Shown here in pieces: positions 8,391 through 11,875 of a stretch of 64,000 nucleotides of DNA. The stretch lies in assembly GCA_902763805.1 (NCBI GenBank), contig CACWTN010000001.1:257069-321068 (forward strand), written 5' to 3'. The notes beneath the pieces were generated by a model that saw only the letters and a program-made list of their open reading frames with translations, had not been told where the DNA came from and searched no databases. The translations under genes were made by a program, and so were the position numbers. Within the stretch, counting starts at the first letter, position 1. Each line of letters starts with the position of its first letter. The stretch comes from an uncultured bacterium. GTDB taxonomy: Bacteria > Cyanobacteriota > Vampirovibrionia > Gastranaerophilales > Gastranaerophilaceae.

Positions 8391-10481
8391 TTAGCCTTTG
8401 CTCGCTCCCGCTTTTTCGATAATTTCTTTTTCGATGTTAGCTGGAACTTGTTCGTATTTCTGGAATTCCATAGAGAATGTACCACGACCCTGAGTATTAG
8501 ATCTCAGGTCAGTAGCGTAACCGAACATGTTAGCCAAAGGAACAACTGCTCTAACAATTACGTTACCTGTGTTACCCTGTGGTTCCTGACCTTCAACACG
8601 ACCACGTCTTCTTGAAATATCACCGATGATTGTACCTGTGAATTCATCAGGAATTTCGATTTCAACCTTCATCATAGGTTCAAGGATACATGGCTGAGCT
8701 TTCTTACAACCATCTTTGATTGCCATAGAACCGGCAATTTTGAACGCCATTTCTGAAGAGTCGACTTCGTGGTAAGAACCGTCATAAAGTTCAACCTTAA
8801 CGTCTATCATCGGATAGCCTGCTAAGATACCGCCTTCAAGAGCTTCTTCCATACCTTTTCTTGCAGGTTCGATGTATTCCTTAGGAATAGCACCACCGAC
8901 GATTTTGTTTTCAAATACAAAACCTTCGTTTTCGCCTGCAGGCATGATTCTGACTTTACAGTGACCGTACTGACCTTTACCACCTGACTGACGGATAAAT
9001 TTAGAATCCTGATCAGCAGTTCCTCTGATAGTTTCACGGTAAGCAACCTGCGGTTTACCAATGTTAGCTTCGACTTTGAATTCTCTTAACATACGGTCAA
9101 CGATGATATCAAGGTGAAGTTCGCCCATACCTGAAATAATTGTCTGACCTGTTTCTGTATCAGATTTAACTCTGAATGAAGGATCTTCTTCAGCAAGTTT
9201 CTGAAGAGCGATACCCATCTTATCCTGGTCAGCTTTTGTTTTTGGTTCAATAGCAACCGAGATAACCGGTTCAGGGAAGTTAATTTTTTCTAAGATAATA
9301 GGTGCTTTTTCATCACAAAGCGTATCACCTGTTGTAGTATCTTTAAGACCTACAGCAGCGCAGATATCACCTGCGTAAACTTCAGTTTCTTCAAGTCTCT
9401 GGTCAGCATACATACGAACCAATCTTGAAATTCTTTCTTTCTTACCGTTAGAAGCGTTAAGAACGTAAGAACCTGAAGTGATAACACCTGAGTATATTCT
9501 CATAAATGTTAAACGACCAACGAACGGGTCTGTCATAACTTTGAATGCCAAAGATGAGAACGGTTCATCATCAGATGAATGTCTTTCAACTTTAGTACCG
9601 TCTTCAAGTTCACCTTCGATAGCTTTAACATCAACAGGGCTTGGCATATAGTAAACAACGTTGTCTAACAATAACTGAACACCTTTGTTCTTGAATGCTG
9701 TACCGCAGCATACAGGAACGATTTTGTTGTTACATACTGCTTTTCTTAAGCCTGCTCTGAGTTCATCAACAGTGATTGAATCAGGATCTTCAAAGAATTT
9801 TTCCATCAAATCATCATCTTCACCTGCGATAGCTTCAACCATAGCATCATGGTATTCTTTAGCTTTTGCCTGTAAATCTGCAGGAATTTCTTCTTCTTTA
9901 ATATCAGTACCTAAATCGTTAGTGTAGATTTCAGCTTTCATAGTCATAAGGTCAACCAAACCTGTAAACTTGTCTTCTGCACCGATAGGTAACTGGATAG
10001 GAACAGCATTTCCGCCTAATCTGTTTTTAATTTGGTCAACTACACGGTAGAAGTCTGCACCTGTTCTGTCCATTTTGTTAACGAATACCATACGAGGTAC
10101 TTCATATCTGTTAGCTTGTCTCCAAACTGTTTCAGACTGTGATTGAACACCACCTACTGCACAGAATACAGCGATTACACCGTCTAATACACGGAGTGAA
10201 CGTTCAACTTCGATAGTGAAGTCAACGTGCCCGGGGGTGTCAATAATGTTAATTTGGTGTCCTTTCCATTGAGCAGTAACAGCTGCTGATTGGATTGTGA
10301 TACCTCTTTCTCTTTCTTGTTCCATAAAGTCGGTAACAGCTGCACCATCGTGAACTTCACCTAATTTATGAGTTTTACCTGTATAAAACAGGATACGTTC
10401 AGTTGTAGTGGTTTTACCTGCGTCGATGTGAGCGGCAATACCAATATTTCTGATTTTCTCTAATGGAGTTTTTCTAGCCAT
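8391..10481 (-). CDS. fusA: Elongation factor G
   Basis: EF-G is the GTPase that drives ribosome translocation. 696 residues, full length. G1 is [18 protein letters not shown] near residue 14; G2 has [10 protein letters not shown]3 is [22 protein letters not shown]4 is NKMD near residue 140; G5 is [10 protein letters not shown]-like. Domains II-V are complete, including [12 protein letters not shown] and [16 protein letters not shown]. It has an AAGGA ribosome-binding site. It stands alone rather than in the classic rpsL-rpsG-fusA-tuf operon, with the 0.9-kb structured region upstream. Confidence 0.98.
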
Positions 10482-10644: not shown

Positions 10645-10670
10645 CATCAAAATAAGCATTTTGATGTGTA
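10645..10670. repeat. Left 26-bp terminal inverted palindrome
   Basis: A hairpin with arms CATCAAAAT / ATTTTGATG and loop AAGC, followed by GTGTA. The full 26 bp recurs exactly, in inverted orientation, at 11307-11332. The two copies bracket the structured gene-free region. Confidence 0.9.
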
Positions 10671-11306
10671 GTATTATTTTATTTATATGTAACTTTCTTT
10701 ATCATTAAAGAAAGTTACCAAAGAAACTGCCCAAGCAAACACTACGCTCACTAATCAATTGTAATGTTCGACCTGAGCAAGTGAACTCAGGACATTAGTG
10801 GGTAAATGTACTATTTTAAGTAAACATACAAGATTTATTTAAAACAGACATTTACTCCACATAAGTCCTTCAGACAGAACTTGCTCTGTTACTGTCTCAC
10901 TAACATTGATTGTTCGCTTCGTAAGGCTTGGGGAACAACAGCAATAAAAAATTAAAACATAAGGGGTTCGGGGCACAACGGAATGAGCAAAAATTCTTGG
11001 TGAAGCAATAACAAAGAGAGTGCTGTTTGAGGAACAGGCGGGTTGTAAATTCGCTATTCTATTTAAACTACAAAGTATCTTTTTTATAAAGAATTTACCC
11101 CGAATGTTCCGAGTTCACTCTATTAGGCTGAACCAAAGAATTGTTTAGCGAATGAAGTTACAGCCCTGAGAGTTTCTTTTGCCTCTTTCTTTGCGGTCAA
11201 AGAAAGGGGCATAATAAAAAGTATTATAGATTTTTCGGCACTTTGTTAATGTAAAAAATAAAAAAAATAAAACATTTTGTCTAAAAAAGACGATAAAAAA
11301 CTATTT
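10671..11306. repeat. Structured non-coding element: four diverged copies of one module in head-to-head pairs
   Basis: No gene is visible in this stretch. By eye it contains two head-to-head module pairs. Each pair has a 54-base centre that begins GTAAAT and ends ATTTAC (10802-10855 and 11045-11098, offset 243). Going outwards, the arms share blocks such as GTyCyGAGTTCACT...AGG..GAAC, a TTAGxGA block, and AGTTTCTTT followed by a CTTTCTTT/AAAGAAAG hairpin (10689-10718 and about 11183-11207). The outer arms are the best matched to each other; the inner arms (about 10856-10945 and 10960-11040) match each other around GTyCCTxCA.ACAG.ACT. It is not an ORF remnant that I can identify. It could be a MITE-like element, a structured RNA, or both. 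Confidence 0.6.
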
Positions 11307-11332
11307 TACACATCAAAATGCTTATTTTGATG
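11307..11332. repeat. Right 26-bp terminal inverted palindrome
   Basis: Exact reverse complement of 10645-10670, again a 9-bp hairpin with a 4-base loop. It lies about 80 bases upstream of mscL. Confidence 0.9.
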
Positions 11333-11410: not shown

Positions 11411-11875
11411 ATGTTTAAAAATTTAGGAAAAGAACTGCGTGACTTTATTTTACGCGGTAACGTAATGGACATGGCAGTCGGTATCATTATAGGTGCTGCA
11501 TTCGGTAAAATTGTTGATTCACTTGTTAAAGACATTATTATGCCGCCAATCGGATTTGTTTTGGGAAAAGTAGATTTTTCAAACCTGTACTTTACACTTT
11601 ATCCGCTGGGTGAAAAATATGATTCGCTTGATGCAGCAGCAAAAGCAGGTGCCGTAACTATTAACTACGGTTTGTTCATTAATACGGTTATCAGCTTTTT
11701 AATCGTTGCATGTGCAATTTTTGCTTTAATCAAAATTGTTAATACGATTAAAAATACGGCTTGTAAAGAAGAAGCCGCTGAAGAAGCTGCTACAGAAAAA
11801 ACTTGTCCGTTCTGCTGTACTCAAATTCCTATCAATGCTAAAAAATGCCCGCATTGTACATCTGAGTTAGGCTAG
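11411..11875 (+). CDS. mscL: Large-conductance mechanosensitive channel MscL
   Basis: MscL opens under membrane tension to release solutes during osmotic down-shock. 154 residues. The N-terminal amphipathic helix and first membrane segment are clear (RDFILRGNVMDMAVGIIIGAAFGKIVDSLVKDIIMPPIG), followed by a periplasmic loop and TM2 (residues about 75-100, GLFINTVISFLIVACAIFALI). The C-terminus is unusual: after an acidic, Ala-rich linker it ends in a zinc-ribbon-like CPFC-x-CxxxxPINAKKCPHC. An AAAGGAG site precedes the ATG. A terminator follows. Confidence 0.96.
   Translation: MFKNLGKELRDFILRGNVMDMAVGIIIGAAFGKIVDSLVKDIIMPPIGFVLGKVDFSNLYFTLYPLGEKYDSLDAAAKAGAVTINYGLFINTVISFLIVACAIFALIKIVNTIKNTACKEEAAEEAATEKTCPFCCTQIPINAKKCPHCTSELG

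Follow-up and report, generated by a model that had tools for sequence, protein, structure and literature searches.

A gene-free, palindromic and mobile-like DNA element with many copies in relatives of a gut bacterium and a core motif found across bacterial phyla

Bacterial MITEs such as Nezha, RUP and NEMIS/Correia (listed in PMC3733652) are short, gene-free sequences with inverted ends that occur in many intergenic copies, fold into hairpins and, for known MITEs, are moved in trans. Known MITEs are restricted to a genus or so. REP, BIME and REPIN sequences, which are associated with RAYT transposases (PMC3733652, PMC2817692, PMC3116915), are palindromic, intergenic, arranged as inverted pairs and mosaic in structure, being built from GTAG- or CGTC-tagged REP hairpins of 20-40 bp. 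Moreover, the stem-loop sequence families of Petrillo et al. 2008 (PMC2267715) are repeated intergenic sequences predicted to fold, described there as species-level families, and the structured RNA families of Rfam 15 combine covarying stems with constant loops. Here we compare with these systems a 688-bp stretch of DNA, 10645-11332 of a 64,000-nt window (the whole stretch of DNA that was analysed), which a first-pass annotation had singled out from the sequence alone. Genomes and loci used for comparison are denoted by G and L numbers, respectively.

The observation made in that annotation is real and more than chance. An exact 26-bp inverted repeat bounds the stretch, extending to 36 bp at 89% when identity is relaxed, and each end is itself a palindrome, CATCAAAAT-AAGC-ATTTTGATG on the left and CATCAAAAT-GCTT-ATTTTGATG on the right, so that the 4-nt loops are reverse complements. 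The element lies between the divergent starts of fusA and mscL (Table 1) and contains no gene, as no ORF of 60 aa or more lies wholly inside it and the nine stop-to-stop frames that were translated gave no Pfam match (best E 0.14, far below the cut-off of that family). The two internal head-to-head pairs that had been described are present and their centres are 243 bases apart, as claimed. However, the unpaired centres measured here are 40 and 38 nt rather than the 54 bases given previously, a difference that depends on which block is taken as the arm. The folding energy is far beyond that of dinucleotide shuffles, with z of -10.1 as DNA and -12.8 and -11.9 as RNA on the two strands, and 0 of 20 shuffles were as good. 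The predicted fold of this giant quasi-palindrome comprises an end stem, two H hairpins, a closing stem AAAGAAAC/GTTTCTTT and two long arms. The possibility of a decayed gene or a chance arrangement is all but excluded by the absence of any protein match, by the folding energy and by the multicopy family described below, and we found nothing in its favour.

Table 1. Positions of the element, its parts and neighbouring genes within the window.
Feature	Position	Strand	Description
Whole element	10645-11332		688 bp, gene-free
Left terminal inverted repeat	10645-10670	+	palindrome with 9-bp arms and loop AAGC; exact 26-bp inverse of the right end
Left H hairpin (type A)	10689-10718	+	CTTTCTTT/AAAGAAAG hairpin; 13-bp perfect stem around TTTCTTT/AAAGAAA
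Inner AAAGAAAC block	10719-10736	+	pairs with GTTTCTTT at about 11171-11178 to close the two-arm part (sequence and predicted fold)
Left arm	10730-10933	+	long imperfect stem-loop (predicted fold); variable stem GAGCAAGTG/AACTTGCTC (10775-10783/10878-10886); apical loop AACTC...CAGACA split by a nested hairpin
Left nested hairpin	10790-10868	+	inside the left apical loop (GGACATTAGTGGGTAAATG ... CATTTACTCCACATAAGTCC); head-to-head pair 10790-10808/10849-10868
Right arm	10963-11167	-	diverged inverted counterpart of the left arm (predicted fold); apical loop also split
Right nested hairpin	11031-11110	+	inside the right apical loop (GGAACAGGCGGGTTGTAAATTC ... GAATTTACCCCGAATGTTCC); head-to-head pair 11031-11052/11091-11110
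Inner GTTTCTTT block	11171-11178	+	closing stem (predicted fold)
Right H hairpin (type B)	about 11180-11211	-	CTTTCTTT/AAAGAAAG hairpin; loop GCGGTC on the plus strand
Right terminal inverted repeat	11307-11332	+	palindrome with loop GCTT
fusA	start at 10481	-	
mscL	start at 11411	+	
ORF of 192 aa	11970-12548		close to the element; putative ORF6N-type DNA-binding protein, judged from its N-terminal sequence alone

To test whether the element is repeated, which had been named beforehand as a point on which the first-pass annotation could fail, we searched the same genome and its relatives. The window's genome has four recognisable copies, as counted from sequence searches, the other three being at C5:177378, C1:50058 and C1:70954 (contig and position), and BLASTN gave hits in 23 of 57 relatives. 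Short runs of N lie inside two own-genome copies (L038 1379-1384 and L040 1054-1069), where copies are most alike, and the assembly or masking there is therefore uncertain. A covariance model of the 92-nt end module (hairpin plus AAAGAAACT...ACTTCATTCGCTAAACAATTGTACGGTTCGACC) hit 64 of 146 genomes of the order, with 1-28 end modules each and 12 in the window's genome. Several contigs of relatives begin inside a copy, as expected of a repeat that breaks assemblies. In the window's genus the end palindrome class CANCAAAAT-N4-ATTTTGNTG, which bounds other copies in the genus, occurs 5-17 times per genome in nine genomes searched with up to 3 mismatches, whilst the reversed control pattern occurs 0 times. 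In G026, G027, G010 and G015 the right end carries a different long hairpin built of TTTTCTTTCTTTT-like repeats (L017 at about 1735-1800, L018 at about 1800-1860, and the right ends in L019 and L020).

Evidence of dispersal came from G158, a genome of another genus of the family, in which 12 copies are bounded by inverted TACATAAAAACTATT ends 396-663 bp apart. All 66 copy pairs match each other, two of them at 98.9% over 356 nt, whilst the flanks match mainly where a copy lies inside another repeat and long flank matches occur only there, so the family moves or has moved recently. One copy (L439, G158:C3:160922-161712) sits exactly in the middle of a second, smaller palindromic repeat with the same TACATAAAAACTA ends (arm GTGCCAAAGGCACGACA), a repeat that hosts copies of the element in its centre (also L432, L436 and L443) and is possibly a second family using the same enzyme. 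Most G158 copies are flanked by TT-TA ... TA-AA, which suggests TA-directed insertion, although these bases cannot be told from the end of the terminal repeat without an empty site. The window copy itself has TA on the left but CA on the right, and no target duplication was visible at terminal pairs in the window's genus. At the trmL site of this genus four species carry an element and others have a 46-85 bp gap without it. Gene order at fusA-mscL is not conserved, which precluded the same comparison there. Of two further apparent empty sites, L086/L099 matches only on one side and L083/L053 is a deletion remnant. Moreover, several solo palindromes, considered as pre-existing targets, proved on reading to be decayed or deleted copies (L081, L083 and L097) and are not evidence of a target. 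With no clean empty and filled site within one species, a target duplication is not proven.

The two ends agree within a copy and differ between copies. In the window's genus the 4-nt loop pairs are AAGC/GCTT, ATGC/GCAT, ACAA/TTGT, TAAT/ATTA, TTAT/ATAA, ATAC/GTAT, ATGT/ACAT, ATCT/AGAT and AGAC/GTCT, which are nearly always reverse complements (L305 is an exception with two differences), and H-hairpin loops occur in both orientations. Such concerted change is expected if the two ends must match for an enzyme, or if template switching between inverted repeats corrects them, and the data do not separate these alternatives. It is thus possible, though we consider it doubtful, that the matched ends and pairing stems are kept by mutational template switching (quasi-palindrome correction) with no selection on the fold, the element being passive repeat DNA. 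The lack of strand asymmetry described below is also in keeping with this. However, such a process does not explain dispersal, nor the recurrence of the same loop motif with the same companion hairpin in many phyla. The palindromic ends, with arms plus an asymmetric core in inverse orientation, also resemble a lox/dif-like site for site-specific recombination or inversion, and at the trmL site the element is in opposite orientation in G008 versus G009/G020. This reading is very unlikely, given the many copies per genome with different cores, the absence of a linked recombinase and the finding that in other genera the ends are ordinary inverted repeats without the palindrome.

We next sought the core of the element outside the order. 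In related copies the arm carries an uninterrupted apical loop AACTCGCTN(N)CGCTCAAACA (seen in L016 and L017), whilst in the window each loop is split by a nested hairpin between AACTC and CA(A/G)ACA. A GGGGTAAATG / CATTTACCCC motif of these nested hairpins recurs in intergenic DNA of this genus outside the element too, for example as repeated GCGGGGGTAAATGA units in the upstream region of L065, and is perhaps a separate short repeat that inserted into the loops. An exact scan of genome contigs with the apical-loop motif AACTCGCTNCGCTCARACA gave hits in at least Proteobacteria, Bacteroidetes, Firmicutes, Fusobacteria, Nitrospirae/Nitrospinae, Patescibacteria and Gastranaerophilales. The motif is enriched, with 87 stretches in viral contigs (which may include host flanks) against 1 and 1 for two permuted controls. 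The loop is constant in these sets by construction, but the pairing and the companion hairpin were not part of the search. In 119 distinct genome instances the flanks pair next to the loop over 8.9 bp on average against 2.6 for swapped flanks, the stem is 6 bp or more in 85% against 5%, and there are 84 different 10-mers among 95 such stems. An AAAGAAAG-type hairpin lies upstream in 55% against 7% of shuffles. In the viral-contig instances the pairing is weaker, with 46% having 6 bp or more against 11%. On a gapless alignment of 63 cross-phylum sequences all nine pairs tested have double changes, with 204 double-change cells versus 97.6+-8.3 and a covariation score of 0.572 against 0.207 shuffled (0 of 500 shuffles). 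Likewise, the H stem over 32 copies in the order shows 58 double-change cells versus 17.6+-3.4 (0 of 500). This covariation could in part come from template-switch correction of inverted repeats rather than from selection.

Complete double elements with the layout of the window were read in Haemophilus, Variovorax and Herminiimonas, and paired stem-loops in Marinobacter and Methylophaga. A version with other interior sequences was read in Paraburkholderia and in Pasteurella. In Paraburkholderia caribensis (L409, NZ_CP013104.1, 5500-6070) the same end hairpins surround a different giant palindrome, and at least 40 matches to the end hairpin lie on one replicon. In Pasteurella multocida (L408, NZ_CP020346.1, 4000-4412) a 412-bp copy lies between dapF and a DUF484/xerC gene pair, on a record called a plasmid that holds chromosomal-looking genes. 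Searches of plasmid and phage collections with the Gastranaerophilales module, of E. coli genomes with the Haemophilus copy and of phages with the Variovorax copy returned nothing.

Strong covariation, constant loops and an intergenic location could also point to a functional structured RNA, cis-regulatory or sRNA, that happens to be multicopy. We regard this as unlikely. Mismatches inside the apical stems are G.T 7 and A.C 8, whereas a selected RNA sense should favour G.U, and the fold is equally good on both strands. These numbers are small, but they lean towards DNA (cruciform or single-stranded) or towards mutational homogenisation. Moreover, 100 proteins neighbouring cross-phylum copies showed no recurrent family, and the element is placed at random among genes. 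No Rfam family reached its gathering score in the element or in 18 cross-phylum loci, and an E-value search of 12 relatives gave only sub-threshold noise apart from a tRNA. Searches of the open literature with sequence strings gave only unrelated primers, none of the stem-loop families of Petrillo et al. that we consulted has this cross-phylum layout, and we found no description of such an element, which does not exclude one elsewhere. The statement of the first-pass annotation that it knew no named element with this layout still holds after these Rfam and literature searches.

Lastly, we sought the enzyme responsible. A large REPIN/BIME-like element moved by a REP-associated tyrosine (Y1, RAYT) transposase was considered because of the paired inverted hairpins, and because element number correlates weakly with Y1 gene number in the genus (Spearman 0.43, p 0.012, not corrected for phylogeny). 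Y1 genes over the cut-off also occur in 28 of 43 motif-bearing genomes from other phyla, a figure without a background rate. However, no GTAG or CGTC tag was seen on reading the hairpins, the element is 400-700 bp rather than built of 20-40 bp units, none of 52 Y1 loci has the motif nearby, and Y1 genes are absent from the copy-rich genomes G154, G142 and G219 and from Haemophilus quentini. This origin is therefore improbable. IS630 transposase (DDE_3), the obvious candidate for TA targets, is absent from 15 element-bearing genomes, ruling against an IS630/Tc1-mariner-derived MITE on this feature. Nor did we find an autonomous element sharing the ends, as exact terminal pairs in G158 are 0.4-0.8 kb apart and none is long enough to hold a transposase. 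No related insertion sequence was found.

Taken together, these data are best explained, with reasonable though not full confidence, by one old copy of a non-autonomous, gene-free, MITE-like mobile element. What the analysis demonstrates is that the element is dispersed in many copies, has matched inverted ends, sits between unrelated genes and in relatives occurs as recent copies in different flanking DNA, and that what is conserved is shape plus a few short sequences, namely a hairpin at each end, an AAAGAAAG hairpin with a second AAAGAAA block just inside it, and two inverted stem-loops with a constant apical loop on freely changing but always pairing stems, which recur in many phyla. We infer, on the other hand, that an enzyme supplied in trans recognises the termini and/or the folded single-stranded or cruciform DNA and copies or moves the element, that the lack of strand asymmetry means the fold acts as DNA and not as one sense of RNA, and that in this genus a secondary hairpin was inserted in each apical loop, giving the four modules; the enzyme, the transposition intermediate and any host benefit are not among the things shown. 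MITE membership in the strict sense is not established, because no autonomous partner was found and the target duplication is unproven. In comparison with the MITEs listed above, the ends are palindromes that vary between copies but match within a copy, and the predicted fold is much larger and multi-branched, with a loop recurring across phyla. The interpretation offered in the first-pass annotation is thus partly supported. Its view of an internally duplicated, structured and MITE-like element rather than a decayed gene is borne out by many copies, different flanks, matched ends and covariation, its suggestion of a repeated structured RNA is not favoured, and its suggestion of a recombination or replication site has no support. 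The results that would have counted against it did not occur, and that the layout is shared across phyla could not be seen from the sequence alone.

In summary, the stretch is one copy of a gene-free, giant-hairpin element whose core looks like an overlooked and very widespread kind of jumping or copied DNA. A more far-reaching reading, which remains tentative, is that of a cross-phylum class of gene-free selfish DNA defined by a folded DNA shape (end hairpin, AAAGAAAG hairpin and two inverted stem-loops with the apical loop AACTCGCTNCGCTCARACA on free stems) and propagated through a single-stranded or cruciform intermediate by a widely distributed host or mobile-element enzyme not yet connected with it. 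Small repeats such as MITEs and REPs are thought to be lineage-specific. A gene-free element with the same loop and layout in Gastranaerophilales-like bacteria, Haemophilus, Variovorax, Bacteroidetes, Clostridia and Fusobacteria implies either very old persistence or wide lateral spread of something without genes, and also a recognition machinery common enough to serve it in all of them, for which the motif provides a concrete and searchable handle. Moreover, given that several contigs here end inside a copy, the element may also explain many intergenic, often mis-annotated stretches and assembly breaks.
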